A stretch of 64,000 bases of DNA, from the NCBI RefSeq assembly GCF_022760175.1, contig NZ_CP094326.1:2716804-2780803 (forward strand), in the 5' to 3' direction. The position numbers were made by a program, and so were the translations under genes. The DNA comes from Zhouia spongiae. Lineage in GTDB: Bacteria; Bacteroidota; Bacteroidia; Flavobacteriales; Flavobacteriaceae. Positions 1,486-63,454 of this stretch are shown one piece after another. The stretch's first letter is position 1; each line of letters opens with the position of its first letter. The notes under the pieces are model-generated. The model made no database searches. It worked only from the letters and a program-made list of their open reading frames with translations, and was not told the origin of the DNA.

Positions 1486-1488
1486 CAA

Positions 1489-2490
1489 GTGAAGAAACGT
1501 TTTTTTTGTATAGATGCCCATACATGCGGCAATCCGGTTCGTCTGGTGGCCGGTGGAGGTCCGGATCTGGATGGATCGAACATAATGGACAAACGGTTAC
1601 ATTTTCTGAAAGAATACGATTGGATAAGGAAAGGGTTGATGTTTGAACCCAGGGGACACGATATGATGTCAGGAAGTATTCTTTACCCTCCGTCTGATCC
1701 GAAGAACGATATAGGTGTTTTATTTATCGAAACCAGCGGATGCCTGCCGATGTGCGGCCATGGTACTATAGGAACAGTAACGATTATGATAGAGGAGGGG
1801 TTGGTAATTCCAAAAGTACCGGGGAAGTTGCGATTGGAAACTCCGGCCGGATTAGTGAACGTTGAATACGTACAGGAAAATGGCAAGGTAAAATCGGTAA
1901 AACTAATCAATGTAGCGTCTTTTCTTTATAAAGAAGAACTCATTGTTAATTGCCCCGACTTAGGAGCGTTAGTTGTAGATGTAGCCTACGGCGGAAATTT
2001 TTATGCTATTGTAGATCCACAGAAAAACTTCAAGGGAATTCAGCATTACAATGTTTCGCAACTGGTAACCTGGAGCCCGGTTATCAGGCAATTATTAAAC
2101 GAAAAATATGAATTCAGACATCCTGTCGATACCAATATTAATGGCCTAAGTCATATACTGTGGACGGGAGAAACAATTTCCGATAATGCTGATGCAAGAA
2201 ATGCAGTCTTCTACGGCGACAGGGCTATAGACCGCTCTCCTTGCGGTACGGGTACATCAGCGCGGATGGCACAATGGTATGCAAAGGGTAAATTAAAAGA
2301 AGGAGAGCATTTTGTGCATGAGAGCTATATCGGATCTGAATTTATTGGGAAAGTAGAAGGTGTTACAACATGTGGTAATTACACTGCTATAATTCCCAGT
2401 ATTACCGGTTGGGCTAAAATATATGGATACAATACAATTGTGATAGATGATGAAGATGATCCATATGCACATGGTTTTCAAGTAATTTAG
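1489..2490 (+). CDS. 4-hydroxyproline 2-epimerase (proline racemase family)
   Basis: Cofactor-independent epimerase converting trans-4-hydroxy-L-proline to cis-4-hydroxy-D-proline in the cytoplasm. The 333-residue length fits the proline racemase family. Both catalytic cysteines are present: Cys89 in the MCGHGTIG motif and Cys252 in SPCGTGTSA. The first is cysteine, as in proline racemases and hydroxyproline epimerases, and not the serine or threonine of trans-3-hydroxyproline dehydratases. Translation probably starts at GTG, 3 bases after the dehydrogenase stop; the next gene begins 1 base after its stop, so coupling is likely. Hydroxyproline rather than proline is preferred as substrate because of the flanking dioxovalerate dehydrogenase and D-amino-acid dehydrogenase. 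Confidence 0.9.
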   Translation: MKKRFFCIDAHTCGNPVRLVAGGGPDLDGSNIMDKRLHFLKEYDWIRKGLMFEPRGHDMMSGSILYPPSDPKNDIGVLFIETSGCLPMCGHGTIGTVTIMIEEGLVIPKVPGKLRLETPAGLVNVEYVQENGKVKSVKLINVASFLYKEELIVNCPDLGALVVDVAYGGNFYAIVDPQKNFKGIQHYNVSQLVTWSPVIRQLLNEKYEFRHPVDTNINGLSHILWTGETISDNADARNAVFYGDRAIDRSPCGTGTSARMAQWYAKGKLKEGEHFVHESYIGSEFIGKVEGVTTCGNYTAIIPSITGWAKIYGYNTIVIDDEDDPYAHGFQVI

Positions 2491-2491
2491 T

Positions 2492-3745
2492 ATGAGTAAA
2501 AAATCTGTACATATTATCGGGGGAGGAGTTATTGGTCTGTGTGCTGCATGGTACCTCAATGAGAGCGGAGCAGAGGTCACTGTAATTGATAAAGGAGACC
2601 TTAAGGATGGCGCTTCTCATGGAAATGCCGGAATGGTAGTACCGAGTCATGTGATTCCGTTATCCTCACCGGGTATGATATCCCAGGGTATAAAATGGAT
2701 GTTTGACAGTAAAAGTCCGTTTTATGTAAAACCACGGATAGACCTATCACTGTTGCAATGGACGTATAAATTCTACAAGTCTTGCAATGAAGCGCATGTA
2801 AGAAGGGCAATGCCTGCATTATTTCGTCTTAACGAATGGAGTAAGCAGTTGTATAATGATTTTGTACTCAGACCGGAATTTGAATTTGATTTTGTACAAA
2901 ACGGTTTGCTGATGTTGTATAAAACGGTGCATCAGGAAAAAGAAGAAAGAGAGCTTGCGGAAAAAGCCGGCGAAATCGGGTTAGAAGCACAAGTGATGGA
3001 TGCAACCGGAATTAAAAAACTTGAACCGGGTATTCAGCTGGATGTGCTGGGAGGTGTTTATTTTCCGGGAGATGCAAATTTGCACCCGAATAAGTTTATG
3101 GAACAGCTTGTACGAGCACTTGAAGAAAAAGGAGTTCGTTTTATGACAAACACAGAAGTTGTTGATTTCAGGACGCATTCCGGCAAAGTAAAGGAGTTAC
3201 TCTTTAAGGAAGGAAATCGTATTAAGGTTGATAATCTATTAATTGCCGGAGGATCATGGTCTTCCCGTTTACTGAAAAAGCTTGGAGTCAAAATTCACCT
3301 TCAAGAAGGTAAGGGGTACAGTGCAACGATAAAAAATGCAGATATAAAGCCGAATATTCCATCCATTCTGACCGAAGGTAAAGTAGCGGTATCTCCTATG
3401 GGAAAAGATCTTAGGATAGGGGGAACATTAGAGTTGGGGGGGATGTCTACAAACATAAATAAGAACAGGTTACAGGGAATTTTTGATAACCTGCCCAAGT
3501 ATTATCCGGATTTAAAATTGAATCTGAATGATATAAATAAGGTTTGGTATGGTTACAGACCTTGTACACCTGATGGTATGCCTTATATCGATAAGGTTAA
3601 AAGTGTAGAGAATCTTTTTGTAGCAACAGGACATGCAATGATGGGAATGAGCATGGGACCGGCTACAGGAAAGTTAATTTCAGAAATGATAATAGACAGC
3701 AAACAGTCTATGGATACAACATTGTTTGGTGTCGACAGATTTTAA
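2492..3745 (+). CDS. FAD-dependent D-hydroxyproline / D-amino-acid dehydrogenase (DadA-like)
   Basis: Flavoenzyme expected to oxidise cis-4-hydroxy-D-proline to pyrroline-4-hydroxy-2-carboxylate. The N-terminus carries a dinucleotide-binding Rossmann motif (HIIGGGVIGLCAAWYL) followed by an acidic end of beta2 (VTVIDKGD). The C-terminal part has the DAO-fold segments YGYRPCTPDGMPYID and ATGHAMMGMSMGPATG, which close the FAD site. The length of 417 residues is normal for DadA-type proteins. It is the last gene of the operon, starting 1 base after the epimerase stop. Soluble or membrane-peripheral location cannot be told; no signal peptide or membrane helix is visible. About 200 bases of convergent intergenic DNA follow, ending in a short taagag/ctctta hairpin at 3942-3956. 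Confidence 0.88.
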   Translation: MSKKSVHIIGGGVIGLCAAWYLNESGAEVTVIDKGDLKDGASHGNAGMVVPSHVIPLSSPGMISQGIKWMFDSKSPFYVKPRIDLSLLQWTYKFYKSCNEAHVRRAMPALFRLNEWSKQLYNDFVLRPEFEFDFVQNGLLMLYKTVHQEKEERELAEKAGEIGLEAQVMDATGIKKLEPGIQLDVLGGVYFPGDANLHPNKFMEQLVRALEEKGVRFMTNTEVVDFRTHSGKVKELLFKEGNRIKVDNLLIAGGSWSSRLLKKLGVKIHLQEGKGYSATIKNADIKPNIPSILTEGKVAVSPMGKDLRIGGTLELGGMSTNINKNRLQGIFDNLPKYYPDLKLNLNDINKVWYGYRPCTPDGMPYIDKVKSVENLFVATGHAMMGMSMGPATGKLISEMIIDSKQSMDTTLFGVDRF

Positions 3746-47775: not shown

Positions 47776-48531
47776 TTGATTTTGAAACCGAAGTTAGTAA
47801 AGTACATAGACCATTCTTCCGAAGTTCCATTGCACAAACAGATCGAGAAAGTATTGCGTATGTTGATCAATACAGGAGATTATGATTTGGGCAGATTATT
47901 ACCCAGTGAAATAGAGCTAAGTAATATGTTTGGTGTTTCTCGGAGTACGGTTCGTCAGGCTTTTAATACTCTGGTGAACGAAGGTTTGCTGGAGCGTAAA
48001 CGAGGTAAAGGAACTGTAGTGGCCCAAAATGGAAATATAATAACGCAACTGAATGAGTGGATTTCCTTTTCAAAAGAGATGAAACGAAAAGGGATCAGGA
48101 TCAAGAATTATGAAGTTCGTTTCCAGGAGGTTGAATGTGATGAAGAACTGGCGAAGGTATTTGAAGTGCCTGTCGGGAAAAAAGTAAAAAAACTAACGAG
48201 GGTTAAAGGAGATGAGTCAGTTCCTTTTGTGAAGTTCGAATCATGGTTTCATCCCAGAATCCCCATATCTGACAATCACGATTTCTTAAAACCGCTGAAT
48301 GATATTCTTGAAGAAGCATACTCTATCATCCCTATGCGGTCATCTGAAGAAGTGCAGGCCATCCAGGCGAATGATGAATTGGCTGAAGTCCTGCAAGTTA
48401 AAAAAGGAATGCCTCTGTTGTATCGAAAGCGTATTGTATATGATGCAGGTATGCGGATCATTGAATATAACAAATGTTACTACAGGCATGATAAAATGAA
48501 GTATAAAATAGATATTGTTAGGAGTGTCTGA
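47776..48531 (+). CDS. GntR family regulator, HutC/UTRA type
   Basis: A 251-residue repressor-type regulator. The N-terminal winged HTH (HKQIEKVLRMLINTGDYDLG, LLPSEIELSNMFGVSRSTVR) is followed by a UTRA ligand-binding domain (about 90-245; VGKKVKKLTRVKGDESVPFV, LYRKRIVYDAGMRIIEYNKC). No ATG is available in frame; translation probably starts at TTG 47776, or at TTG 47782. It lies just ahead of the GH92 cluster. HutC-type palindromes upstream of the first (48846-48855) and third (57081-57090) GH92 genes are candidate operators, with a mannose-derived metabolite as possible inducer. Confidence 0.88.
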   Translation: MILKPKLVKYIDHSSEVPLHKQIEKVLRMLINTGDYDLGRLLPSEIELSNMFGVSRSTVRQAFNTLVNEGLLERKRGKGTVVAQNGNIITQLNEWISFSKEMKRKGIRIKNYEVRFQEVECDEELAKVFEVPVGKKVKKLTRVKGDESVPFVKFESWFHPRIPISDNHDFLKPLNDILEEAYSIIPMRSSEEVQAIQANDELAEVLQVKKGMPLLYRKRIVYDAGMRIIEYNKCYYRHDKMKYKIDIVRSV

Positions 48532-48871: not shown

Positions 48872-51800
48872 ATGAATAGCAAAATTCTTATTCTGATAAT
48901 TAGCTTGTTTAGTGCTTTTGGGTGTTTGGCTCAGGAGAAGATTGTCTGGCAAATCGGAAAAGCCGATAATAGCGGGAACGAATTTGCGCTGGCACCGTCT
49001 TCGTACGAACATTTTTTAGAAAAAGATTTTGGTTGGGAAGACAGGTACTATCTGGTTGGCTATTCAAGCGATCGGAAAGATTTTCCGTATGTGTTACCCG
49101 GAGCGATAGACTATTGGGGAGGAACCTCAGGTTTGGCCGGAATAAGACCCCATGAGATCAATGTATTATTTGGCGTTGACGACAAGCCTGAAACAGGAAA
49201 ATACCGGTTGCTGGTCGATATTCTTGACTGTAGTGCCAAAGAAGCACCGTATTTAAAAATCACCGTAAATGACAGATCGTGGAAATATCGGCTGAAGAGA
49301 GGAAACGGCGATCAGGTTCTGAATGGGAAAAATGAAAATGCCGGGGAGCAGTTAATTACAATTGATTTGGATGCAGACCTGATTAAAAAAGGAGGGAATA
49401 AAATTCAATTCACCACTTTGGAAGGCAGCTGGCTGGTGTTTGATAACATTCGCTTCTACGGTCCTGAAAAAACGAGTATAACGGTTCCTGAAAATGCTTT
49501 TATAAGGAACGTAGCTACGGCTACCTACGAAATAGATAAAGGGGGGAGCCGTTTTCAGCCTCTTTTGATAGATGTTCAGCATTTGGAGGGAATGCCTGAG
49601 TTAAAAGTAAAGCTTGATGGAAAACCTGTTTTTAGTGAAAGGATTGAACAGGGCAGATATGTTTTTGAGGTGCCGATGCCGGCGGTTAAAACGTCTGTAG
49701 AAAGTGCATATGAAATTTTAATTAACGGACAGGTTGTAGAGAAGGGAACGGTAAGCAGAAGCCTTCAGAAACTTGCAGCTCCTTCAGATTATGTCGACAC
49801 TAAAATTGGTACAGGTCATTCCCGATGGATGATAGCGCCGGGGCCATGGATGCCCTTCGGAATGGTTAAAATAAGTCCGGACAATCAAGATGAAGGATGG
49901 CAGGCAGGGTACCAGCCAACATTTGAAAGTATCGGCACATTCAGTCATATCCATGAGTGGACAATGGCCGGTTTGGGGACTTTCCCCACCAACGGAAGGC
50001 TGATAACAGAAATGGGAAAACAAGAAGACCCCGATAGTGGTTACCGGTCACGTATCGATAAAACTACAGAACAAGCCCCTTTAGGGAGTTATTCGGTGCA
50101 TTTGAGCGATTATGATATAAAAGCAGAACTTACGGCAACCACCAGATGCAGCTTTCAGCGATATACGTATCCAAAAGACGATTTAAATTCCAGAATTTTA
50201 GTAGATCTGAAAATACCGGGAGAATACGGTTATGAAATAGAAGAGGCCTATTTCAAAATGATCAGCGATTATAAAATAGTGGGGTACAGCAAGCAAGTAT
50301 CACGCCATATCTGGGGCGAACAATACTATAGAAAACAAATGGTGGAAGATGGAGATGAGCCCAAAGAATGGGACGATATAAGCCAGCACTATACAGTACA
50401 TTTTGTGATGGAGTTTGACCGGCCCATAAAGAGATTTGGAGTGCGGACAGATGGTAAAGAGAAGGGGGATATTGTTATTATAGATAAATCAGAGGAACTA
50501 AAAACAGACCATCCTGAAAGCGCTGTGGCATTTTTAGAGTTCGATACTTCCGGATATCAGGTGGTTCAAACAAGAACAGGGATTTCGTATGTAAGTATTG
50601 AAAATGCGGAAATGAACCTTGAAAAAGAAGTTTCAGATCCTTTCGGATGGAGTTTTGAAAAAGTTCGTCAGCATCAGGTTCAAGCCTGGGATCGTTTATT
50701 CGACAGGGTAAGGATCACCACGACAAACAGAGAAGAAAAAAGAAGGTTTTATTCTAATATGTACCGGGCTCTGGTAAGTCGTAATATCTTTAGCGATGTT
50801 GATGGAAGCTGGGTAGATGCAACGGAAAATGTGCAAAAATTTAATGATCCGGGAGATGTTGCTTTAGGGTGCGATGCTTTCTGGAATACATTCTGGAACC
50901 TGAATCAGTTTTGGAACCTGGTAACTCCTGAATGGTCATCGAAATGGGTTAAGTCTCAGTTGGCCATGTATGATGCCAATGGCTGGCTGGCTAAAGGTCC
51001 GGCAGGAATGGAGTATATTCCTGTTATGGTGGCAGAACATGAAATTCCGCTGATTGTGGGAGCGTATCAGATGGGTATTCGTGATTTTGACGCGGAGAAA
51101 GCTTTTGATGCTGTATATAAGATGCAAACTGCTACAGGGGAGAAAGTAGGAGGAGGTTATGCGGGAAACAGGGATCTTGGCACTTATTTAAAATATAAGT
51201 ATGTACCTTATAACAAGGGAAGGTTTTCAAATACCCTGGAGTATGCTTTTGATGATTATGCGGTTTCTCAACTGGCTAAAGCACTCGGAAAAAAAGAGAA
51301 GTATCTTGAGTTTGCAGACAGAGCCGGCTGGTGGAAAAATGCAATCGATCCGGAAATAGGATTTGCAAGATTAAGGCATTCGGACGGTTCGTGGTATAAA
51401 GATTTTGACCCGATCAGATCGGGAGGTAATCATCAGTTTGTTGAAGGGAATGCATGGCAGCTTACTTTCTTTGTCCCTCAGGATATTCCTGCACTTGCAG
51501 AAATTATTGGTGAAGAAAGGTTTACGAAGCGTCTCGATGATGGTTTTGCCATAAGCAGCAACTGGAGGTACAATGCTCCCAATGAATTGTACTGGGATTT
51601 TCCTGTTATTCAGGGAAACCAGCAATCAATGCATTTTGCTTACCTTTTTAACTGGGGTAAAAAGCCGTGGCTTACTCAAAAATGGAGTAGAGATATATTA
51701 GACCGTTTTTATGGTTATGGCGTATCCAATGCCTATTTGGGAGACGAAGACCAGGGGCAAATGAGTGCATGGTTTATAATGTCGTCTATCGGATTGTTTC

Positions 51801-52102
51801 AAACAGATGGAGGAACAAGGGTAAATCCAATCTATGAAATAGCCAGTCCTTGTTTTGAAGAAGTGGTCATTAATCTTGGAGAAAAATATGGAAGAGGAAA
51901 GAACTTTACCATTAAAGCCAAAAATGTATCCCGAAAAAATAAGTATGTGCAGAGCGCTGTATTAAATGGCAAAAAACTCGATAATTTTTGGTTTCCTGCC
52001 AGCGAATTGTTAAAAGGAGGGACACTGAAATTGATAATGGGTGCTACTCCAAATAAAAAATGGGGGGTAAAAGAGATGCCTCCTAAAACCAACAAACAGT
52101 AA
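48872..52102 (+). CDS. GH92 family alpha-mannosidase with N-terminal carbohydrate-binding-like domain
   Basis: Exported enzyme of 1076 residues. Signal: ILIISLFSAFGCLAQ. Residues about 22-200 form a beta-sandwich resembling the accessory domain of rhamnogalacturonan lyases (YRLLVDILDCSAKEAPYLKI). The GH92 region starts near residue 305 (SDYVDTKIGTGHSRW, MPFGMVKISPDNQ). The expected acid glutamate is present in FVEGNAWQ (near residue 858) and the base motif is DEDQGQMSAWF. GH92 enzymes are calcium-dependent inverting exo-alpha-mannosidases. The motif FSHIHEWTMAGLG replaces the usual SHTHLSGTG, so linkage specificity should not be assumed. First gene of the mannoside cluster. Confidence 0.88.
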   Translation: MNSKILILIISLFSAFGCLAQEKIVWQIGKADNSGNEFALAPSSYEHFLEKDFGWEDRYYLVGYSSDRKDFPYVLPGAIDYWGGTSGLAGIRPHEINVLFGVDDKPETGKYRLLVDILDCSAKEAPYLKITVNDRSWKYRLKRGNGDQVLNGKNENAGEQLITIDLDADLIKKGGNKIQFTTLEGSWLVFDNIRFYGPEKTSITVPENAFIRNVATATYEIDKGGSRFQPLLIDVQHLEGMPELKVKLDGKPVFSERIEQGRYVFEVPMPAVKTSVESAYEILINGQVVEKGTVSRSLQKLAAPSDYVDTKIGTGHSRWMIAPGPWMPFGMVKISPDNQDEGWQAGYQPTFESIGTFSHIHEWTMAGLGTFPTNGRLITEMGKQEDPDSGYRSRIDKTTEQAPLGSYSVHLSDYDIKAELTATTRCSFQRYTYPKDDLNSRILVDLKIPGEYGYEIEEAYFKMISDYKIVGYSKQVSRHIWGEQYYRKQMVEDGDEPKEWDDISQHYTVHFVMEFDRPIKRFGVRTDGKEKGDIVIIDKSEELKTDHPESAVAFLEFDTSGYQVVQTRTGISYVSIENAEMNLEKEVSDPFGWSFEKVRQHQVQAWDRLFDRVRITTTNREEKRRFYSNMYRALVSRNIFSDVDGSWVDATENVQKFNDPGDVALGCDAFWNTFWNLNQFWNLVTPEWSSKWVKSQLAMYDANGWLAKGPAGMEYIPVMVAEHEIPLIVGAYQMGIRDFDAEKAFDAVYKMQTATGEKVGGGYAGNRDLGTYLKYKYVPYNKGRFSNTLEYAFDDYAVSQLAKALGKKEKYLEFADRAGWWKNAIDPEIGFARLRHSDGSWYKDFDPIRSGGNHQFVEGNAWQLTFFVPQDIPALAEIIGEERFTKRLDDGFAISSNWRYNAPNELYWDFPVIQGNQQSMHFAYLFNWGKKPWLTQKWSRDILDRFYGYGVSNAYLGDEDQGQMSAWFIMSSIGLFQTDGGTRVNPIYEIASPCFEEVVINLGEKYGRGKNFTIKAKNVSRKNKYVQSAVLNGKKLDNFWFPASELLKGGTLKLIMGATPNKKWGVKEMPPKTNKQ

Positions 52103-52116
52103 AAAACAATTAAGAC

Positions 52117-53181
52117 ATGAAAATGAGATTATTACTTTTTTTATTCGCTATTTCCTTCATTGGTTGTGAAAATTCAGAACAAGAGCAAAACAAAGTAGAA
52201 AACATTGTATTAATAAGTATAGATGGTTTACGATGGCAGGAGGTTTTTAAAGGTGCAGACTCACTTTTTACAGAAGACAAGCACTTTTGGGCAAATACCG
52301 AAGCCGAAAGAAGACAAAAATTAATGCCTTTTTTTTGGAATACAATAGCTCAAAAAGGACAACTGTATGGGAACAGAGACCTTGGTAACAAGGCAAATGT
52401 AAAGAATAAGTATTGGTTTTCTTACCCGGGCAGAAGCGAAGCACTTTGTGGTTATTATGATCCTAAAGTTAATTTAAACGAGTATCCAAACAACCCCAAT
52501 GAAAACGTTTTAGAGTTCATTGATGAAAATGAAAGTTATAAAGGAAAAGTGGTGACTTTTGCATCGTGGGAGGCTCTTGGCAGGGTTTTAAATCGCGACC
52601 GGAACGGCATGCTTGTAAACTTACCAGGCGAAGATGTGCAAGAAGGCTCTGAAGCACAAAACCTTCTAAACGAACTGCAACATCTAATACCGGAATACCA
52701 CCATGATTGTAGACCGGATGAGTTAACATATATGATGGCAAAAGCCTATATACAAGACAAACACCCAAAAGTTGTCTATCTCGATTTTGGAGATACCGAT
52801 ATCTTTGCGCACGATGGCGAGTATGGTAAATATTTAGACGCAACCAATCGCACCGATAAGATGATATCCGATTTATGGGAATCACTCCAGAATGATCCTT
52901 TTTATAAGGATAAAACGGCATTACTGGTTTATACAGATCACGGTAGAGGAATAGATGATTACGGATGGAAACACCATGGCGATGCAATACCTGGTAGCGA
53001 TGAAGTATGGCTTGCTGCATTAGGCCCTGGAATACCAAATCTCGGAGAAGTAGCTCGTGATGGTCAAATTTATCAGGACCAAATAGCGCAAACTGCAGCC
53101 AATATTTTAGGATTTACCTTTGAGGCTGATCATCCCGTTGGTAACAGTATAGAAGGAGTGTTTGTTACCAAAAAAGATTAA
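52117..53181 (+). CDS. Alkaline phosphatase superfamily lipoprotein
   Basis: A 354-residue exported metalloenzyme with a lipoprotein signal (LLLFLFAISFIGCENSE). Metal ligands of the alkaline phosphatase/NPP superfamily are visible: LISIDGLRWQ, LDFGDTDIFAHDGEY, VYTDHGRG and GWKHHGD. The likely nucleophile is the serine in SYPGRSEALCG; there is no CxPxR sulfatase motif. It sits 14 bases after one GH92 gene and ahead of another, so removal of a phosphate or phosphodiester decoration from a mannan or glycan is a fair inference. It could also be a phosphodiesterase of unrelated use. Confidence 0.82.
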   Translation: MKMRLLLFLFAISFIGCENSEQEQNKVENIVLISIDGLRWQEVFKGADSLFTEDKHFWANTEAERRQKLMPFFWNTIAQKGQLYGNRDLGNKANVKNKYWFSYPGRSEALCGYYDPKVNLNEYPNNPNENVLEFIDENESYKGKVVTFASWEALGRVLNRDRNGMLVNLPGEDVQEGSEAQNLLNELQHLIPEYHHDCRPDELTYMMAKAYIQDKHPKVVYLDFGDTDIFAHDGEYGKYLDATNRTDKMISDLWESLQNDPFYKDKTALLVYTDHGRGIDDYGWKHHGDAIPGSDEVWLAALGPGIPNLGEVARDGQIYQDQIAQTAANILGFTFEADHPVGNSIEGVFVTKKD

Positions 53182-53308: not shown

Positions 53309-55723
53309 ATGAAATATGAAATAAACAAACATAAATGGCTGGTGATTATTTTTTTCTTAATGGCATTGCTGGTTGTCAGCTGTAGTAAAAAAGAAAAAAT
53401 AGAAAAACCTTTGGTAGCGCTGACACAATATGTGGATCCGCAGATTGGCTCGGTGCATGGACGATGGTTTTTTTATACCCCGGCGGCACGACCATTTGGA
53501 ATGGCCAAACTAGCGCCACATACCAATGGTTATAATAGTGCAGGAGGATGGGGGCCTACGGGATACGACGATCGGCATACCTCAATAGAAGGCTTTGGAC
53601 ATTTTCATGAGTTTCAGATAGGAGGATTGGTATTCATGCCCACAGTCGGAAGTGTAAAAACTGTTCCGGGAACACTGGAAGATCCGGACTCAGGATATCG
53701 ATCACGCTTTAATAAACCCACAGAGCATGCGGAGGTAGGGTATTATCGAGTTCGTTTAAACGACTATCAGATAGAAGCAGAAATAACAGCCACTGAAAGG
53801 GTAGGTTTTCACAGATATACTTTTCCAAAGACCGATGAGGCAAACCTGATTATAGATATTGGACACAAGCAGGGAGAAAGTGGTGATGTGACCGATGCCT
53901 TTGCACAATTGGTAAATGAAAATGAAATTGAAGGTTATATAGAAACATATCCGGAGTATGTGAAATTTTGCGATCCGGGTAAGCGGGTTAAAATGTATTT
54001 CGTTGCCAGGCTCAGTAAAAAACCACTTGCCGTGGGAGCTTTTAAAGATACTGTCCAGAACATTGATGTTCCAAAAACGGAAGGAACGGATAACGGACTG
54101 TTCCTGAGGTTTTCAATGCAGGAAGGGGAGCAACTCGAAATACAAACCGGATTAAGTTACACCTCCGTTAAAAATGCAAGGTTAAATTTAAATGTAGAGG
54201 CTGCAGAAAGAACCTTTGATGATGTCCATAATGAATCAAAGGTAGTATGGAACCAAAAGCTCAATAATATTGTAGTAGAAGGAGGTGAAGAGAAAGACAG
54301 AATTAAATTTTATACCGGCTTGTACCATGCGTTACTGGGACGGGGATTGGCCAGCGATGTTAATGGAAATTACCCAATGGCAGATGGCGGAATAGGACAG
54401 ATTTCCCTAGACGAAAATGGGAAGCCTGCCTATCAACATTATAATACGGATGGAATGTGGGGAGGTTTCTGGAACCTAAGCCAATTGTGGGCACTGGCAT
54501 TCCCATCCTATTTTAAAGAGTACTTGCAATCGAATATCGATTTATATAAGAAAAGAGGCTGGTTACATGATGGTGAGGCAGCCGGAGTTTATACTAATGG
54601 GGTACAAACTAATTTTCAGGGGCTGCTCATAGCCTCAGCTTACAATGTCGGTATCAGGGATTTTGATATTCAATCGGGATATAAGGCTGCATTAAAGAAC
54701 GAACTGGATTATCACGACCGTAATCTCGGGAATGGTAAATATGATCTCAGTTACTTTGTAAAAGATCATTACATACCTCATAAAGATACTATCATTTCTA
54801 ACGGATGGGTGTTTAATTTCGGAGCCTCACATACTTTGGAATATAGTTTTAGTTCTTATGCAGTAGCCCAAATGGCGAAACAGTTAAAGGATAGTATCAG
54901 TTATAAAAAACTGATAAGTCAGGCTGGGTATTACAAGAACTTATTCGATGAAAAAACAAAATTTATAAGGCCAAAACTCGAAAACGGTAATTTCATTCAG
55001 GATTTTGATCCGATGAAGGGATGGGATGGTTTTCAGGAGGGGAATGCATTCCAGTATACCTGGTATGTGCCTCATGATGTGCAGGGACTCATAAATCTGA
55101 TGGGAAAGCAGCTTTTTAATGAACGCCTTGAACAAATGTTTACAGCTGCACGAAAAAGCATGTTCGGAGGCGGATCAGAAGAAATACACAGTTTTTCAGG
55201 AGTAGAAAAATTATACAATCATGGCAATCAGCCGTGTTTGCATAACCCCTGGCTTTTTAATTATTCAGGAAAACCGTGGCTCACTCAAAAATGGGTTCGA
55301 ACTATTTGTAATGAGTTTTATGGTACAGAAGCTTTGCACGGCTACGGAGTTGGACAAGATGAAGATCAGGGGCAATTGGGAGCGTGGTATGTGATGGCCG
55401 CGATGGGCTTGTTTGATGTTCAGGGGCATAGTAATTCCGATCCTACATTTCAGTTCGGAAGTCCGCTTTTCGATAAAATCAGTATCAAGTTAGATTCGCA
55501 ATATTACCAGGGCAATGCGCTGGTAATAGAAGCGGTGAATCAAGATCCCGATAATAAATATATTCAGGCAGCTGTCTTTAACGGAACGCCTGTAAACACA
55601 AACTGGATTTCCCGGAAGCAACTGATGAAAGGGGGAAAACTCATCTTTACATTAGGAAAAGAACCAAATAAAAACTGGGGCGTGCAATCACTGCCTCCAT
55701 CAATGTCTAACCTTAAAAATTAG
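53309..55723 (+). CDS. GH92 family glycosidase, lipoprotein
   Basis: An 804-residue GH92 protein with a lipoprotein signal (LVIIFFLMALLVVSCSKKE). The fold starts at TQYVDPQIGSVHGRW and PFGMAKLAPHTNG. The acid residue is conserved in FQEGNAFQYTWYVPHD (Glu near 577) and the base motif is DEDQGQLGAWYVM. At the expected SHTHLSG position it reads GFGHFHEFQIGGLVF. It is the most diverged of the three GH92 proteins here, suggesting another linkage or substrate. Followed 12 bases later by the (alpha/alpha)6 protein, so co-transcribed with it. Confidence 0.87.
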   Translation: MKYEINKHKWLVIIFFLMALLVVSCSKKEKIEKPLVALTQYVDPQIGSVHGRWFFYTPAARPFGMAKLAPHTNGYNSAGGWGPTGYDDRHTSIEGFGHFHEFQIGGLVFMPTVGSVKTVPGTLEDPDSGYRSRFNKPTEHAEVGYYRVRLNDYQIEAEITATERVGFHRYTFPKTDEANLIIDIGHKQGESGDVTDAFAQLVNENEIEGYIETYPEYVKFCDPGKRVKMYFVARLSKKPLAVGAFKDTVQNIDVPKTEGTDNGLFLRFSMQEGEQLEIQTGLSYTSVKNARLNLNVEAAERTFDDVHNESKVVWNQKLNNIVVEGGEEKDRIKFYTGLYHALLGRGLASDVNGNYPMADGGIGQISLDENGKPAYQHYNTDGMWGGFWNLSQLWALAFPSYFKEYLQSNIDLYKKRGWLHDGEAAGVYTNGVQTNFQGLLIASAYNVGIRDFDIQSGYKAALKNELDYHDRNLGNGKYDLSYFVKDHYIPHKDTIISNGWVFNFGASHTLEYSFSSYAVAQMAKQLKDSISYKKLISQAGYYKNLFDEKTKFIRPKLENGNFIQDFDPMKGWDGFQEGNAFQYTWYVPHDVQGLINLMGKQLFNERLEQMFTAARKSMFGGGSEEIHSFSGVEKLYNHGNQPCLHNPWLFNYSGKPWLTQKWVRTICNEFYGTEALHGYGVGQDEDQGQLGAWYVMAAMGLFDVQGHSNSDPTFQFGSPLFDKISIKLDSQYYQGNALVIEAVNQDPDNKYIQAAVFNGTPVNTNWISRKQLMKGGKLIFTLGKEPNKNWGVQSLPPSMSNLKN

Positions 55724-55735
55724 CTTACCATAACG

Positions 55736-57031
55736 ATGAAGAAATTATTAGTAACCGGAATAGCAATAATGATAACTGCGTGTTCTTCAAACAAAGAAGA
55801 TAAAAAACTGGCGGCAGAGATATTGTCCGACAAGAATTTTAAAGAAGTAACAGAAAAAGCTCTCGAAGTCGTTAAAACCGGATTTAATGCAGGTGATGGT
55901 TATGGCGAGGTGTGGATTAGGGATTACAATACATTTATTGAATTATCGGCAGAAGTATTTGATCACAATACGCTTAAGGAGAATCTATTAGTGTTCTTCA
56001 GGTTACAGGGAAATGATGGAAATATTATAGACGGGTTTATTCCAAAAGAAAAAGCAGTAGCAACAGAGGGCGGGTATCAATACATATATTCAGATCTCGA
56101 ACCCGACTATTGCGGACATAAAAATACAGTGGAAACAGACCATGAAAGTTCTCTGGTACAGGCTGTCTACAGATATGTGAAAAAGACAGGAGATGCCGAT
56201 TTTCTGAATGTTAAAGTAGGGGATGCTACGGTGGCTGAACGTATAGAAAACTCGATGACATTTTTAATGAATGAACGCTGGAGTGCTAAATACGGATTGA
56301 TCTATGGAGCCACTACTGCCGATTGGGGCGATGTACAACACTCACATCCCTGGGGAGTATATATTACTGAAGACACCCATTATTGTGTAGATATCTATGA
56401 TAATGCCATGATGCTGATTGCCCTTGATAACATGATGGAGTTAATACCTGTGACTAAGGTCAAATGGGGGCCAATTCGTAATGAAATTGCTAAAAATACA
56501 ATGCAGGTTTTGTGGGATGATGAACACCAGAAATTTATCCCTCATGTTTATTTAGACGGATCCCCTTATCCGGATGATTTTAATGAAAATGAAATTTACT
56601 ACCACGGGGGAACAGCAGTAGCTATTGAGGCAGGGTTATTGAATAAGGAACAGATCAAAAGTGCTCTCGGCAAAATGATAGCAAATGTAAAAGCATCCGG
56701 AGCAGGTTCCATAGGTTTAACGATGTACCCTCCATATCCTGACTGGGCTTTCGAAAACAAGGGGATGTACCCTTACGGCTACCAGAATGGAGGCGATTGG
56801 ACCTGGTTTGGAGCCAGAATGATCCAACAGCTTATCCGCTATGGTTTTGTAAAAGAAGCCTATGAGCAAATGCAGCCTATGACTGATCGTGTCGTAAAAA
56901 ATAATGGCTTTTTTGAATGGTATACAGTAGATAATAAACCTGAAGGCTCCGGTACTTTCAGAGGATCGGCAGGTGTACTTTATAAAGCTATTCAGCAGTT
57001 TTACGATTGGGCTGCAGAAGTAGAAAAATAA
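55736..57031 (+). CDS. Unassigned (alpha/alpha)6-barrel glycosidase-like lipoprotein
   Basis: A 431-residue protein with lipoprotein signal (LLVTGIAIMITACSSNK). Helical repeats and acidic aromatic motifs (GYGEVWIRDYNTFIEL, VETDHESSLVQAVYRYV, GATTADWGDVQHSHPWG, GGDWTWFGARMIQQL) point to a six-hairpin glycosidase fold like that of GH37, GH63 and GH125, but the diagnostic motifs of none were recognised. Candidate catalytic acids are the Asp of WIRDYN, the Asp of TADWGD and the Glu of FFEWYT. It is located between two GH92 genes with a 12-base gap upstream, so it should act on the same glycan. Confidence 0.7.
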   Translation: MKKLLVTGIAIMITACSSNKEDKKLAAEILSDKNFKEVTEKALEVVKTGFNAGDGYGEVWIRDYNTFIELSAEVFDHNTLKENLLVFFRLQGNDGNIIDGFIPKEKAVATEGGYQYIYSDLEPDYCGHKNTVETDHESSLVQAVYRYVKKTGDADFLNVKVGDATVAERIENSMTFLMNERWSAKYGLIYGATTADWGDVQHSHPWGVYITEDTHYCVDIYDNAMMLIALDNMMELIPVTKVKWGPIRNEIAKNTMQVLWDDEHQKFIPHVYLDGSPYPDDFNENEIYYHGGTAVAIEAGLLNKEQIKSALGKMIANVKASGAGSIGLTMYPPYPDWAFENKGMYPYGYQNGGDWTWFGARMIQQLIRYGFVKEAYEQMQPMTDRVVKNNGFFEWYTVDNKPEGSGTFRGSAGVLYKAIQQFYDWAAEVEK

Positions 57032-57129: not shown

Positions 57130-59415
57130 ATGAGAATTTTAATATTGATACTTCATGTTTTCCTTTTTATAAATATAAGCTTTGGTCAATTCACCAAAAC
57201 GCCTTCAGAGTACGTTGATGTATTTATGGGAACTTCCAATTCAAGATGGATGTTAGGGCCTTATGCAACCGTACCGTTCGGAATGATACAGTTGGGTCCG
57301 GACAACCAGGGCAACCAATGGATGGGTGGTTATGAATATGCAATAAACAGTGTTTCTGGGTTTAGCCATATACATGCCTGGACCATGGCTGGGTTACGCA
57401 TGATGCCTACAACTGCAGACCTGGTAATAGAAGATCGTCCGGTTGATGCACCTTATAAAGGAGCCAATGCCGGATATCATTCCCGGATATTGAAAGAAAG
57501 TGAAAAAGGTTCGCCCGGGTATTATTCGGTATACCTGTATGATCATGACGTGAAAGCTGAAATAACGGCCACTACCCGTTGTGGTTTCCAGAAATATACC
57601 TTTCCAGAGAAAAAAGAATCCCGGATACTGATTGACCTGTTGATACCTTCGGAATACGGAATGAAAATAAATGATGCCAGGATTACCAAAGTCAGTAATA
57701 CGGAAATAGAAGGCTATGCAGATTGTGTAAGCTCGTGGTGGAACAATTACAAACTGCATTTTGTGCTGCAGTTTAGTAAACCGTTTAAAATAATGAATGG
57801 CTGGAACGAGGGGAAAGAGCAAGACGATATTACTGAAATAACAGGAAAGAACGATATTGGAGCCTATGTGATCTATGAAACAGAGAAAGATGAAGAAATA
57901 TTGGTGAGATCAGGAATATCGATGGTGAATATAGACCAGGCCAGGTTAAACCTGGAAACGGAGATCACCATTCCTTTCGGATGGGACTTTAATGCCGTTG
58001 TTAATAATGCTCAGGAAGCATGGAACAAAATCCTGAAACGTATAAACGTAGCAGGCGGCACTGAAGAAGACAAAATAAAATTTTACACGAATCTTTACAG
58101 AGCCTATGCGGCAAAACAAACATGGAACGATGTGAACGGAAAGTATATGGATCCTTGCGAAAACGAGCAAGAGTCCGCTAAAGGCGTAGCTATGTATGGC
58201 GGTGATGCCTTTTGGAACTCGTTCTGGAACCTTAATGGTTTGTGGTCGCTGGTTACTCCCGATATTACTAAAAACTGGGTAAATACACAGCTGGAATTAT
58301 ATGAGAAGACAGGATGGACGGGGAAAGGACCTACCGGATTGGAATACTCAGGAATTATGGAGGGATCACATGAGATGGCCCTGATGTTGAGCGCCTATCA
58401 GAAAGGGATTTATACTGAAGACCCCGGGAAACTGTATGAGGCCATGAAGAAAAATGTGACCGTTAGCGGCATTAACCACGAATGTGGCGGACATGCAGGG
58501 AATCCGGGCTTGGATAATTATATAAAATACGGATATATGCCTATGGATAAGGGAGTTACCAATAAAACCCTCGACTATGCTTTTGATGACTGGTGTGTAG
58601 CTCAGATGGCCAAGGCCGCAGGCTATAGAAAAGACTATAAATACTTTATAAAACGTTCCGAAAATTATAAAAATTCATTTCATCCTGAATATAGATTTAT
58701 AGTTCCCAAAGATAGTAAGGGAAAATGGAAGGAAAATTTTAGTGCTTTCGATAACTATAGCTTCATTGAGGGGAATAGCTGGCAATATTCATTGTATGTA
58801 CCGCATGATATCCCGGGGGTAATAGATTTAATAGGAAAAGATCTGTTCAATCAAAGGCTGGAAGAAGGGTTTAAAAAATCAAAAGAACACAAATATGCAG
58901 CCCACGCACTGGACAGAACCGGAGGAAGAAAATCAGAGTATTACATCAATCATGGTAATCAGGTAAATATGCAGGCCGCGTGGTTGTTCAATTATTCCGG
59001 GAAACCATGGCTGACGCAAAAATATACCCGAGATATTATGGAAACTTATTACGGGTCGACTCCCTACCACGGTTGGGAAGGCGATGAGGATGAAGGACAG
59101 ATGGGAGCTTGGTTTGTAATGAGTTCGATGGGGTTATTTGAGATGAATGGAGGAGGGGATGCAGATCCTGTGCTTGATATCAGTAGTCCGCTGTTTGACA
59201 AGATTGTCATAAAACTTGATGAGAATTATTATCCGGGAAATGAATTTGTAATTGAGACTCTAAACAATTCCAAAAAAAATATTTATATCCAATCTGCGAC
59301 ACTCAATGACAGGGCGTTAAGGTCTTGCCGGATAAAATATAAAGACTTGGTTAAAGGAGGTAAATTGGTCTTGATAATGGGAGACAGGCCCAACATAAAC
59401 TGGGGGAAGCACTAA
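57130..59415 (+). CDS. GH92 family glycosidase
   Basis: A 761-residue exported GH92 protein with a classical signal (ILILILHVFLFINISFGQ) and no lipobox. Start of the fold is SEYVDVFMGTSNSRWM followed by VPFGMIQLGPDNQ. The acid glutamate is in FIEGNSWQYSLYVPHD (near 547) and the base motif is DEDEGQMGAWFVM. The variable loop reads FSHIHAWTMAGLRMM, close to the first GH92 protein of the cluster, so these two are nearest relatives. It ends 9 bases before the ROK-isomerase fusion. Confidence 0.88.
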   Translation: MRILILILHVFLFINISFGQFTKTPSEYVDVFMGTSNSRWMLGPYATVPFGMIQLGPDNQGNQWMGGYEYAINSVSGFSHIHAWTMAGLRMMPTTADLVIEDRPVDAPYKGANAGYHSRILKESEKGSPGYYSVYLYDHDVKAEITATTRCGFQKYTFPEKKESRILIDLLIPSEYGMKINDARITKVSNTEIEGYADCVSSWWNNYKLHFVLQFSKPFKIMNGWNEGKEQDDITEITGKNDIGAYVIYETEKDEEILVRSGISMVNIDQARLNLETEITIPFGWDFNAVVNNAQEAWNKILKRINVAGGTEEDKIKFYTNLYRAYAAKQTWNDVNGKYMDPCENEQESAKGVAMYGGDAFWNSFWNLNGLWSLVTPDITKNWVNTQLELYEKTGWTGKGPTGLEYSGIMEGSHEMALMLSAYQKGIYTEDPGKLYEAMKKNVTVSGINHECGGHAGNPGLDNYIKYGYMPMDKGVTNKTLDYAFDDWCVAQMAKAAGYRKDYKYFIKRSENYKNSFHPEYRFIVPKDSKGKWKENFSAFDNYSFIEGNSWQYSLYVPHDIPGVIDLIGKDLFNQRLEEGFKKSKEHKYAAHALDRTGGRKSEYYINHGNQVNMQAAWLFNYSGKPWLTQKYTRDIMETYYGSTPYHGWEGDEDEGQMGAWFVMSSMGLFEMNGGGDADPVLDISSPLFDKIVIKLDENYYPGNEFVIETLNNSKKNIYIQSATLNDRALRSCRIKYKDLVKGGKLVLIMGDRPNINWGKH

Positions 59416-59424
59416 AACATAAGA

Positions 59425-62118
59425 ATGGCTGAAACAAAAAAGAAATATGCAATTGGTGTAGATATAGGAGGATCCCATATTGCAACTGCCGTGGTAGATA
59501 TTCAAAACAGGAAGGTTATTCCGGAAACTAAAATCCACGTGCCTCTTGATTCAGGCCAGAATGCCGGTAGCATACTTGAAATTTGGGTTAGGACCATAAA
59601 GGAGAGTGTGCAAAGAGCAGGTAATTTACCTGTTTGGGGTATTGGCTTTTCTATCCCGGGGCCGGCTGATTATCAACAGGGAATTTTAAAGATAAAAGGA
59701 TGTAATAAGTATGAAAGCCTGTTTGGCATTGATATAAAAACACTTTTAGCAACAAAACTAAAGGATTGTCTGATCGATCCTGATAACATAGTATTCATTA
59801 ATGACGCCAGCGGGTTTTTATTGGGAGAAGTATGGTCGGAAGGTCTGGAAGACGATAACATAGTAGCCATTACTCTGGGAACAGGTATAGGTTCGGGATT
59901 TATGCAGAATGGATCTATTGTTTCTGATGCTGAGAACATTCCTGAGTATGGAGAGATCTATAATCTGCCTTATAGGGCACGTACGGCTGAAGACTGGATA
60001 TCGACCCAATGGTTCTTAAGCAGATATGAAGAAATATTTAAGGCCGGTGTCCAGAACGTAAAACAAATAGCCGAAGCGGCCGCCTATGATGAAAGGGCGC
60101 AATTCATATTTGAAGAATTCGGAATGAACCTGGGGAGTTTATTATTTCCCGTACTTGAGAAGTTTGATGCCGATTTGCTAATACTAGGAGGTAATATAAC
60201 AAAAGGGTATTCCTTGTTTAAGGATACATTCGAGAAAGCATTTAATGATGCCCCCCCTAAAATACATTTTGCTAGAGAAACTGAAAATGCCGCAATACTT
60301 GGGGCGGTTAAAAATTTGATAATCATGGATGAAACTAATGTAAAAAGAAGAGAAACCGAACAAATTTTAATGCCGGTAAGGCAATCCGAAAAGGTGCAGG
60401 AAGGGTATAATATATTTCCTTCTTTTGAAATTGAAAAAGGAGTCATAGTACAAGGCTTTGATACTTTAGCTCGAGAGATCTCAAAGTATAAAAAAGTGTG
60501 TATAGAGGGGTATGTGGGTGTAGATTGGGATTTTTTTATCGGGAATCTATCGAAAGCACTCCATGCTCTCGAAGTTGAGAACATAGCCTGTTCGGTTTTT
60601 TCGGCCTATAAAAATGAATCCGAAATAGAAGAAATGATATCCCCTTTTTTAGGAGGCGATGATCCAGTTTTTGGACGTTTGTTTGAGGGAGAACTGGAAA
60701 GTTTTATCGATGTTGATAAACTCAGTTCCATAAAAGCTGATGACAATTGTCTCTCAATTATATACGGACCGGGAGCTTCTTTAGGTAATTGGGATGCCAA
60801 ACTGATTTATATAGATATCCCTAAAAATGAGATTCAATACAGGTCGAGAGCAGGTTGGGTAACAAATCTGGGAGTTCAGAATCCAATACCTCCAAAGCCA
60901 CAGTATAAAAGAATGTTCTTTGTAGACTGGCCGGTTTTGAACAAGCATAAAAAAGACCTTTTAAAGGATATAGATTATATTATTGACGGTCAATATCTAA
61001 ATGATATTTCATGGTGTAGCGGAGATACTTTCAGGTTGTCTTTGAATCAAATGTCTAAAAACGCATTTAGGGCTAGACCATGGTTTGAACCGGGTGTATG
61101 GGGAGGTGACTGGATTAAAAAAAATATAGCAGGACTTTCTCAGGATGTTGTAAATTATGCCTGGTCTTTTGAGCTGATAGTACCGGAAAACGGAATTGTG
61201 TTTTCATACAAAGGAGTAAACCTCGAAGTGTCTTTCGACTTTCTGATGTTTAATGACAATAAGGCCATTCTTGGTGATGCGGCAAAGACCTTTGGAACAG
61301 ATTTTCCTATCAGGTTTGATTTTTTAGATACATTTAACGGCGACAAGCTCTCCTTGCAATGTCATCCTTCTCCTAATTTTATAACGGAGCAGTTCGGCGA
61401 AAGGTTTACTCAGGATGAGACCTATTATATACTGGATGCAGAACCTGATGCGAAAGTATATTTAGGTTTTCACGAAAATATAGATGAGGATGAGTTTCAT
61501 AGAGCATTGAACAAGAGTCACAACGATTGTACGCCAATGGATGTTGAAAGCTTTGTGCAGGTACATCCGGCTAAAAAACACGATCTGTTCCTCATCCCAC
61601 ACGGTACGGTACATTGTTCCGGGGAAAACAATTTGGTGCTGGAAATAAGCAGTACCCCTTATATTTATACTTTTAAAATGTACGATTGGATGCGTATGGA
61701 TTTAAACGGACACCCCAGGCCATTGAATATAGAGAGAGGTATGGCCAATCTGAATTTTGATTGTAAAGGAGATGTGGTAAAAGAAGAGTATATTTCGAAA
61801 CAAACTGTAGTAGAAGAAAATGAAGACTCGAAAGTAATCCGTTTGAGTACACATCCACAGCATTTTTATGAAGTTTACAGAATGGAATTTAAGAACCGGA
61901 TTCATGTAACCGGAAATAATCAGTGCCATGTGTTGAGTTTGGTTGAAGGAAATTCTATAGAAGTCATAACGGGAGATAGAAAAATGATTGTCAAGTATGC
62001 GGAAACTTTTGTAATCCCGGCTGAATCCGGCTCGTATAGGATTAACAATCTGGGACCAGGGATGGCCAAGGTTGTTAAATCGTATGTTAAACCAGAAGTA
62101 TGTAATCATGAATTTTAA
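59425..62118 (+). CDS. Fusion of ROK sugar kinase and class I mannose-6-phosphate isomerase
   Basis: Cytoplasmic bifunctional candidate of 897 residues. Residues 1-300 form a ROK kinase (IGVDIGGSHIATAVV, ITLGTGIGSGFMQNG, ADLLILGGNITKGYSLF). Residues about 325-500 resemble a nucleotide-kinase-like P-loop domain with a degenerate Walker A (CIEGYVGVDWD near 358, no GKS/T). Residues about 520-897 form a type I phosphomannose isomerase cupin with metal ligands in QCHPSPNF (near 643) and HGTVHCSGENNLVLE (near 727). The ROK zinc-finger cysteines common in glucokinases are not seen. Most likely role: mannose to mannose-6-phosphate to fructose-6-phosphate in one protein. It overlaps the porter gene by 11 bases. 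Confidence 0.85.
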   Translation: MAETKKKYAIGVDIGGSHIATAVVDIQNRKVIPETKIHVPLDSGQNAGSILEIWVRTIKESVQRAGNLPVWGIGFSIPGPADYQQGILKIKGCNKYESLFGIDIKTLLATKLKDCLIDPDNIVFINDASGFLLGEVWSEGLEDDNIVAITLGTGIGSGFMQNGSIVSDAENIPEYGEIYNLPYRARTAEDWISTQWFLSRYEEIFKAGVQNVKQIAEAAAYDERAQFIFEEFGMNLGSLLFPVLEKFDADLLILGGNITKGYSLFKDTFEKAFNDAPPKIHFARETENAAILGAVKNLIIMDETNVKRRETEQILMPVRQSEKVQEGYNIFPSFEIEKGVIVQGFDTLAREISKYKKVCIEGYVGVDWDFFIGNLSKALHALEVENIACSVFSAYKNESEIEEMISPFLGGDDPVFGRLFEGELESFIDVDKLSSIKADDNCLSIIYGPGASLGNWDAKLIYIDIPKNEIQYRSRAGWVTNLGVQNPIPPKPQYKRMFFVDWPVLNKHKKDLLKDIDYIIDGQYLNDISWCSGDTFRLSLNQMSKNAFRARPWFEPGVWGGDWIKKNIAGLSQDVVNYAWSFELIVPENGIVFSYKGVNLEVSFDFLMFNDNKAILGDAAKTFGTDFPIRFDFLDTFNGDKLSLQCHPSPNFITEQFGERFTQDETYYILDAEPDAKVYLGFHENIDEDEFHRALNKSHNDCTPMDVESFVQVHPAKKHDLFLIPHGTVHCSGENNLVLEISSTPYIYTFKMYDWMRMDLNGHPRPLNIERGMANLNFDCKGDVVKEEYISKQTVVEENEDSKVIRLSTHPQHFYEVYRMEFKNRIHVTGNNQCHVLSLVEGNSIEVITGDRKMIVKYAETFVIPAESGSYRINNLGPGMAKVVKSYVKPEVCNHEF

Positions 62119-63454
62119 AATTGTATTTATTGCATTTGCGGCTGCACTGGCCGGATTTTTGTTTGGGTTTGACACTGCAGTGATTTCAGGCACAGTTGAA
62201 TTGGTTAAGGAACAATTTAACCTTTCTGACGCCGGAATAGGCTGGTATGTTAGCTGTGCATTGGTAGGTGCTATTTCCGGTGTGGTATTTTCAGGTTACC
62301 TGAGTGATAAATACGGCCGTAAATTTATGTTGATGCTATCCGGGGCCCTGTTTTTAATCTCAGCTCTGGGATGTACAGTTTCAGGGTCTTTTACAGAGCT
62401 GGTACTTTATCGGTTAATAGGAGGTGTTGCCTTTGGGGTTGCATCTATGGTTTCGCCATTATACATCAGTGAAATTTCTCCGGCTCATATGCGAGGAAAA
62501 TTGGTGTCGGTCTATCAGCTGGCTATTACACTTGGAATCCTTATAGCCTATTTTAGTAATTACTGGACGTCTCTCGCTCATGAAAGAGGACAGGATTCCG
62601 GTTTTTTTCTGGCAAAACTTCTATATGGGGAACAATATTGGAGAGGCATGTTCTTTAATGAGGTATTTCCGGTGATTTTATTTTTAGGGTGCTTACTCTT
62701 TATCCCTAAAAGTCCGAGATGGTTGATGGTAAAAAACAGGATAGATGCCGCCAGACAGATCATAGATGCATATCAAATAGAATATCAACAACAGAAAACG
62801 GAGGTTAAAGAAGAAAAAACAGGTTTTTTTAAACTGGTAAAAGGAATTTACCGGCGTCCGATGCTTATAGCCATATTCTTGATGGTTTTCTCCCAGATAT
62901 GTGGTATTAATGCAATTATTTATTACGGTCCCAGTATTTTGAATGAAGCCGGATTTACCCTGGGAGATGCCCTGGGAGGGCAGGTAACAATAGGTTTTGT
63001 GAATGTTGTTTTTACGTTTGTTGCAATCTATACCATAGACAGGTGGGGCCGAAAACCTCTTTTGAGGTTCGGTGCAACAGGTGTTATTTTGTCATTGTTG
63101 CTGATTAGTCTCATGTTCTTTCTGGGAGACAGCTATGCTAATTATGTTATAGTAGGAATACTGCTATATATTGCGTGTTATGCTTTTTCTCTGGGACCGG
63201 TTCAGTTTGTGATCGCATCTGAAGTATTTCCGACAAATATCAGGGGCAGGGCGCTGACTATAAGTACATTGTTTTTATGGGGAACAAATGCCATAGTTGG
63301 ACAGACTTTTCCAATGATATTATCGGAGTTAAAAGCTCCGCTTACTTTTTTGCTTTTTGGGGTAATCTGTATGCCGGCTATATGGATTATTAAAAAATAT
63401 ATTCCGGAAACAAAAGGAAAAACCCTGGAAGAAATAGAAAATTCATGGAAATAA
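62108..63454 (+). CDS. MFS sugar porter
   Basis: Twelve-helix sugar:proton symporter of 448 residues from ATG 62108 (an earlier in-frame start would overlap the previous gene by 47 bases). Sugar porter signatures: GFLFGFDTAVISGTVEL, GYLSDKYGRKFMLM, PLYISEISPAHMRGKLVS, PKSPRWLMVK, DRWGRKPLLR and IPETKGKTLEEIE. The start overlaps the kinase-isomerase fusion by 11 bases, so transport and phosphorylation are coupled in expression. Mannose is the likely substrate from context. Last gene of the cluster, followed by a strong terminator. Confidence 0.92.
   Translation: MNFKIVFIAFAAALAGFLFGFDTAVISGTVELVKEQFNLSDAGIGWYVSCALVGAISGVVFSGYLSDKYGRKFMLMLSGALFLISALGCTVSGSFTELVLYRLIGGVAFGVASMVSPLYISEISPAHMRGKLVSVYQLAITLGILIAYFSNYWTSLAHERGQDSGFFLAKLLYGEQYWRGMFFNEVFPVILFLGCLLFIPKSPRWLMVKNRIDAARQIIDAYQIEYQQQKTEVKEEKTGFFKLVKGIYRRPMLIAIFLMVFSQICGINAIIYYGPSILNEAGFTLGDALGGQVTIGFVNVVFTFVAIYTIDRWGRKPLLRFGATGVILSLLLISLMFFLGDSYANYVIVGILLYIACYAFSLGPVQFVIASEVFPTNIRGRALTISTLFLWGTNAIVGQTFPMILSELKAPLTFLLFGVICMPAIWIIKKYIPETKGKTLEEIENSWK

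Follow-up and report, generated by a model that had tools for sequence, protein, structure and literature searches.

A ROK-family sugar kinase fused to a long-form class I phosphomannose isomerase in a probable mannose-catabolic operon of Zhouia spongiae

A gene at positions 59425-62118 (+ strand) of a 64,000-nucleotide stretch of Zhouia spongiae DNA (contig NZ_CP094326.1, positions 2,716,804 to 2,780,803; the whole stretch is termed the window) starts with ATG and encodes a single chain of 897 amino acids, in which a ROK sugar kinase (residues 1-302) is followed by a linker, a middle domain (residues 322-548) and a class I phosphomannose isomerase (PMI) cupin domain (residues 549-897). The fused frame is genuine and recurrent, and the protein is probably a dedicated catabolic mannose enzyme converting mannose through mannose-6-phosphate to fructose-6-phosphate, a single protein proposed for both cytoplasmic mannose steps in alpha-mannoside-degrading Bacteroidota. 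The two ends belong to known families and the pathway is ordinary, the fusion being a variant of known enzymes; new to specialists would be that a widely distributed long form of the isomerase combines a kinase fold lacking the P-loop with an isomerase site lacking the proposed catalytic lysine. An earlier note on this DNA, made from the sequence alone, described a mannose kinase and an isomerase joined through a degenerate P-loop domain; its parts, the predicted folds and a mannose-catabolic setting are supported, but not its view that the middle domain was silenced on the way to fusion, and conversion without release of mannose-6-phosphate, as it proposed, is a hypothesis. No description of the fusion, the long isomerase, the middle domain or their setting was recognized in the literature searched, which left most subscription papers outside and does not imply that these are unpublished.

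The chance of 897 open codons is about 2e-28 by a simple estimate from the base composition of the window. Domain searches place the ROK and PMI ends. The AlphaFold2 model of the whole chain has a mean predicted local distance difference test score (pLDDT) of 93.6 and a predicted template modeling score (pTM) of 0.92; it was built on alignment A4, in which the window's protein is joined by 61 of the 79 rows for isomerases and by 14 of the 18 for solo ROK proteins. The junction (residues 303-321, 60331..60387, + strand) is delimited by the open reading frame starts of split loci and by alignment A3, and its sequence RRETEQILMP corresponds to the N terminus of stand-alone long isomerases such as MKRNTSQHLIP (L050) and MRKTEQEIMP (L085).

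A scan of genome contigs gave at least 570 relatives, of which the best 80 were fetched; L101, cut by a contig end, lies outside all counts of 79, and L034, L037, L053 and L066 lie outside alignment A2. The search for the same fusion in other genomes, proposed by the earlier note, finds the ROK-middle-PMI chain in 19 of the 79 relatives as an uninterrupted frame of 871-913 amino acids in which BLAST matches each of the three parts. In other relatives the genes are separate, and at some of these loci a ROK kinase or a kinase of the unrelated BadF type neighbors the isomerase. Among 394 Bacteroidota genomes, 29 have the long isomerase (E <= 1e-40) and 5 of these, including the window's own, have the full chain, with the two parts lying on different contigs in a sixth genome (G494). 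Within the 196 genomes of the order, the full chain occurs in 2 (including the window's own) and the isomerase without a kinase in the same match in 4. On plasmid p1 of Flammeovirga kamogawensis the genes run GntR, fused gene, sugar porter, hypothetical protein and GH92, and the RefSeq plasmid record annotates the fused gene as one protein, "ROK family protein". The same full-length architecture in other genomes means that the fusion is not an assembly error. An artefact in which a sequencing error merges two genes into one frame has a negligible probability: split genes are common in the relatives and a 901-codon frame of a GC-rich genome mimics the fusion, but the 19 uninterrupted frames and the RefSeq record rule the artefact out. 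The mimic is L131 (frame 565-3267), where a ROK-like gene (542-1486) sits in another frame beside the isomerase; frame length alone therefore overcounts fusions.

The ROK domain (59425..60330, + strand) matches Pfam PF00480 over residues 10-295 with 69.8 bits against a cut-off of 22.9, and the predicted structure resembles ROK-family chains (VIA Z 24.0-29.3). It shares the fold, the DxGG motif and the catalytic aspartate with ROK kinases such as glucomannokinase (PDB code 1woq), NanK and glucokinases, and the best PDB match of the segment by E-value is a glucomannokinase. Its motifs, placed with an alignment of 51 ROK rows, are DIGGSH at residues 13-18, in place of DIGGT, and the catalytic ND at 126-127, with Asp127 as the catalytic aspartate. 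Asp13, Gly15, Gly16, Asn126 and Asp127 are invariant in the 20 fused rows of alignment A3 and the ND motif is kept in 21/21 fused rows, which bears out the earlier reading of a ROK kinase. A CxCGxxGC zinc motif is usual in ROK proteins, though not in all. It occurs in 0/21 fused rows. Of 30 solo ROK rows used for comparison, 29 also lack it, but these were chosen by BLAST with this ROK domain and are an unfair sample of ROK kinases; the motif is present in the L005 solo kinase and, by eye, in the L006 kinase outside the 30-row set. Its absence does not exclude the domain from the ROK family because the profile is matched and the catalytic residues are present. A role for the ROK part as a repressor was rejected, as the domain starts near residue 7 and would leave no space for an N-terminal DNA-binding domain. 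ROK glucokinases of a planctomycete have been proposed to phosphorylate mannose (PMC5673643).

The isomerase domain (61069..62115, + strand) is most closely related in sequence, among solved structures, to a mannose-6-phosphate isomerase, the PMI of Bacillus subtilis (PDB code 1qwr), which aligns with residues 541-873 (E 1.3e-13). Superposition of the modeled PMI end on this structure gives VIA Z 30.3 over 311 residues with a root mean square deviation (rmsd) of 2.6. The cupin fold and the Gln/His/Glu/His metal ligands are shared with the class I enzymes B. subtilis ManA, Bacillus amyloliquefaciens BaM6PI and Salmonella ManA. The BaM6PI study (PMC4718643) gives the ligands as Gln98, His100, Glu118 and His175, and these correspond to Gln645 and His647 of a QCHP motif (61357..61365), Glu665 (61417-61419) and His730 (61612-61614), all on the + strand and kept in 85/85 long forms and in 14/14 short PMIs taken from the window's order. 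This strict conservation argues for an active isomerase.

The middle domain (60388..61068, + strand) is predicted to have the fold of uridine, nicotinamide riboside and pantothenate kinases without their Walker A motif. Modeled alone with AlphaFold2 it has a pLDDT of 92.6, and Foldseek places it closest to PDB code 3c8u (E 1.4e-5) and NRK1 (2.4e-4), with matches ranging to about 1e-3 and TM (template modeling) scores of 0.4-0.5 on the query, about 0.5 for 3c8u. Comparison with nicotinamide riboside, uridine-cytidine and pantothenate kinases gives VIA Z of about 10-12.8, with 11-12.8 for the pantothenate and nicotinamide riboside kinases, and an rmsd of 3-4; unlike these kinases, with which it shares the predicted fold, the domain has neither Walker A nor detectable sequence similarity to them. 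The segment in the window matches no Pfam or NCBIfam family. In a search of Pfam and the PDB sequences the window's copy is unmatched. Other members give a few weak, scattered hits, the best with E 0.015, and no P-loop kinase family sharing this fold is among them. A profile comparison with the uridine kinases of its own genome and relatives, to which 15 of 27 extra loci were added (+ strand matches only, with L138 among the 15 repeating L007), also finds no sequence link to the middle domain. Because no such link is found, the assignment is one made from predicted structure alone.

In the sequence CIEGYVGVDWD (residues 359-369), which has no GKS/T, the model has a strand at 357-362 and a helix from 368, and from this strand-helix order and the aligned ranges GYVGVDWD (residues 362-369, 60508..60531, + strand) would occupy the place of the GxxxxGK[ST] P-loop. 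The family consensus at this place is GYxGVxW(D/E), common to fused and split proteins, with Gly365 present in 83 of the 85 long forms and Trp368 in 64, phenylalanine or tyrosine replacing it in 18 of the remaining 21. A second loop, PKNEIQxRxRAG, follows a strand and has Gln471 and Arg473 in 85/85 rows; it may be the equivalent of the arginine-bearing lid of P-loop kinases. The pattern G....GK[ST] occurs in 0/91 middle-domain rows, fused or unfused, therefore this fusion did not silence the domain, and a role as an active kinase was rejected. The kinase-like fold and missing Walker A described by the earlier note are upheld as predictions, but the degenerate motif is not special to the fusion, since stand-alone isomerases share it. 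The domain is found in 20 of 296 Bacteroidota genomes, at one place in each and always inside a long isomerase. It is thus a standing part of the long-form PMI, and most likely a non-catalytic one with a structural, lid or ligand-sensing role.

The genes around the fusion all lie on the + strand and agree with a mannose-catabolic setting. A GntR/UTRA regulator (47776..48531, Pfam) is located 340 bases before the first of three GH92 genes, which has an N-terminal domain resembling a carbohydrate-binding module (48872..52102, Pfam GH92 461.1 bits). The second GH92 gene (53309..55723, 445.2 bits) and the third, of the alpha-mannosidase family (57130..59415, 458.5 bits), follow, with a gap of 9 bases between the latter and the fusion. 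The last 11 bases of the fusion are overlapped by the gene of a sugar porter of the major facilitator superfamily (62108..63454, Pfam Sugar_tr 364.1 bits; TIGR00879 354.4 bits, cut-off 237.8). This run is probably a mannose-catabolic operon. Genome-wide there are 8 GH92 matches and one short PMI elsewhere (L002), and the fused gene is the sole ROK match; the sole ROK match together with a separate short PMI fits a dedicated catabolic copy. In the proposed pathway mannose would be freed by the GH92 enzymes outside the cytoplasm and imported by the sugar porter encoded just downstream, after which phosphorylation at C6 by the ROK domain would give mannose-6-phosphate, to be converted to fructose-6-phosphate by the metal-dependent cupin domain. 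The fusion would have joined a ROK kinase gene to a long-form class I isomerase gene, neighbors in some relatives, with the long form already carrying the kinase-like middle domain. We infer the substrate, the reaction order, the release and transport steps and the route of fusion, the substrate specificity being taken solely from homology and gene context. The ManR regulon predicted in Bacteroides thetaiotaomicron has a similar outline: it is under a GntR regulator and covers the uptake of mannose, its further conversion into fructose 6-phosphate, and alpha-mannosidases (PMC3878776).

Kinases of two families accompany the long isomerase at other loci. Besides the 19 fused relatives, a ROK gene is found within 300 bases at 8 of the 79 loci and farther away at 10, and a BadF-type gene within 300 bases at 8 and farther away at 3. 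The profile used for BadF derives from 8 loci that are among its own matches, and one of the 8 adjacent BadF loci (L107) is a frame overlapping the isomerase. Independent evidence comes from Pfam searches of 10 chosen neighbors at 9 loci, mostly of other phyla, which identify 8 BadF kinases (L097 10991-11950, L040 6921-7916, L047 8754-9746, L061 8761-9744, L062 8767-9768, L072 8776-9699, L073 6504-7493 and L056 7828-8865), the other two being a URO-D protein and a GH2 protein with a mannosidase domain. That different kinase families accompany the same isomerase is the best argument for one pathway. At L005 and L006 the neighboring ROK proteins are of the usual type that has the zinc motif. Of the 19 fused relatives, 16 have a sugar porter gene no more than 300 bases away, and GntR, SusC, SusD, ROK, PMI and sugar porter are separate genes in Hymenobacter sp. 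DG25B. In the Arthrobacter citreus, Hymenobacter and Parabacteroides records, kinase and isomerase are separate neighbors and the long isomerase is named "class I mannose-6-phosphate isomerase". These annotated long forms (about 580-600 amino acids) share the middle domain and, in those compared, the altered active site with the Zhouia protein and differ in having no fused kinase; widespread proteins annotated as ordinary mannose-6-phosphate isomerases thus combine an atypical active site with a degenerate domain that resembles a kinase.

Several findings weigh against the proposed pathway, in the gene context as well as in the isomerase site. At 31 of the 79 loci the fetched stretch has neither a ROK nor a BadF kinase, and a GH92 match occurs in the stretch of only 8 of the 19 fused relatives, some of these stretches being short. 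The isomerase matches the manA model TIGR00218 with 35 bits (E 9e-9), under the 116.2-bit equivalog cut-off. In addition to an extra middle domain of about 225 residues, it differs from class I PMIs at the position of BaM6PI Lys116, to which PMC4718643 assigns proton transfer in a docking model: at this place, two before the ligand glutamate (K-x-E), glutamine is present in 85/85 long forms (Gln663, 61411..61413, + strand) and lysine in 14/14 short ones. Asp632 (83/85 long forms) replaces a lysine and Lys751 (85/85) an arginine, each present in 14/14 short PMIs, and Arg630 is an addition of the long forms (85/85). Asp632 and Lys751 would be the equivalents of Lys86 and Arg274 of the Salmonella enzyme, mutated positions named in PDB titles; a literature search on Salmonella PMI residues found no paper on the K86/R274 mutants. 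The altered positions agree in a set of 28 loci made up in part of the same genes: L114, L117 and L138 repeat L003, L004 and L007, and L113 and L115 probably repeat L044 and L078. The archaeal structure 1zx5 also seems from its alignment to lack this lysine, so not every member of the wider family has the residue, and a protein without it need not be inactive. The earlier note's reading of a metal-dependent isomerase is supported by the metal ligands; the note missed the difference from short class I PMIs at the lysine. The domain is a PMI homologue that may work like a PMI, though not a standard class I member, and its residues suggest that the long-form branch may use altered chemistry.

These replacements bear on what the long isomerase acts upon and when. 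It is improbable that it handles another phosphosugar, or is poor or inactive with a regulatory role, leaving the mannose-6-phosphate step to the short PMI (L002): the second PMI in the genome and the changes of lysine to glutamine, lysine to aspartate and arginine to lysine across the long forms compared would fit such a role, but the four metal ligands are retained throughout and mannosidase, sugar-porter or kinase neighbors recur. A reversed order is very improbable; in it the cupin domain would isomerize free mannose, and the ROK domain, as a fructokinase, would phosphorylate the fructose formed, with the same end product. Phosphate handling may indeed differ where the proposed catalytic lysine is missing and lysine replaces arginine, and ROK proteins include fructokinases, of which the models NF007108 and NF045550 match the kinase far under their cut-offs; set against this, Lys751 is still positively charged, Arg630 has been added, and the closest matches of the two ends among solved structures are a mannose-6-phosphate isomerase by sequence and a glucomannokinase by E-value. 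Beyond a structural role, the middle domain could still bind a nucleotide or sugar phosphate and act as a sensor tuning the isomerase or the kinase. This is possible without being probable, as the strong conservation of GYxGVxW and PKNEIQxRxRAG, loops at ligand-binding places of P-loop kinases, has to be set against the missing Walker A and profile-level link to uridine kinases, and the conserved loops could serve packing. Gln663 and the middle domain co-occur in 85/85 long forms and in 0/14 short PMIs, and because they go together the retired kinase domain may form part of the isomerase site. Extended to the whole long-form branch, the proposal is speculative and rather unlikely: the lysine would have been exchanged for glutamine with matching Asp632, Arg630 and Lys751, the kinase fold lacking its P-loop would belong to the working site as a lid or substrate clamp, and ROK or BadF kinases would have been added as neighbor or fusion. 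If true, this would be a new way of building the enzyme, with either kinase attached so that mannose is converted to fructose-6-phosphate, in the present case by a single chain. The long forms with Gln663 open a direct test of the role proposed for lysine in PMIs.

The trees are compatible with more than one history of the fusion. The 21 fused rows do not group together as a single clade in the isomerase tree (approximately unbiased test, p-AU 0.0002; 6 label changes), but the test on the kinase tree does not reject such a clade (p-AU 0.14). A single fusion followed by splits and repeated fusion are both possible. A split is suggested by Flavobacterium hibernum L065, where the isomerase starts at a methionine within the linker of the fused relative L064, with which it shares its GntR and sugar-porter neighbors; L065 has probably lost the kinase part. 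The fused gene of Prevotella sp. 10(H) (L104, 6017-8755) lies far from other fused genes on the isomerase tree, and a stand-alone Bacteroidales kinase has its best match in the ROK part of this gene (43% to L054). This is perhaps a second, independent fusion, although the kinase tree does not reject a single origin.

Further observations concern the neighboring genes. The loci pairing a BadF kinase with the long isomerase belong to Chloroflexota, Actinomycetota, Deinococcota and one unassigned bacterium, and at L097 a GH2 mannosidase-like gene lies between isomerase and kinase. The two BadF kinases that were compared with NagK_SO3507 match it below its cut-off, and the paired kinases are possibly an unrecognized mannokinase group. 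In one sub-branch a gene for a cupin-type glucose-6-phosphate isomerase comes after that of the long isomerase (L007 3141-3920, PF06560; L006 3280-4074, by eye), which suggests a path on to glucose-6-phosphate. Two proteins interleaved with the GH92 genes of the window are also encoded on the + strand. The first, of 354 amino acids (52117-53181), lies between the first two GH92 genes and gives weak metalloenzyme/phosphodiesterase matches, none in NCBIfam or the PDB at the thresholds used. The second, a putative lipoprotein by eye (431 amino acids, 55736-57031), has no match in Pfam or the PDB and none in NCBIfam above cut-off. Homologues of this 431-residue protein are found by BLASTP at the isomerase loci of 27 of the best 80 relatives, making it a candidate for a mannoside-active enzyme not yet characterized. 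The GntR regulator has 43 BLASTP matches around fused or split isomerases elsewhere, 42 of them at 39-51% identity and one at 29%.

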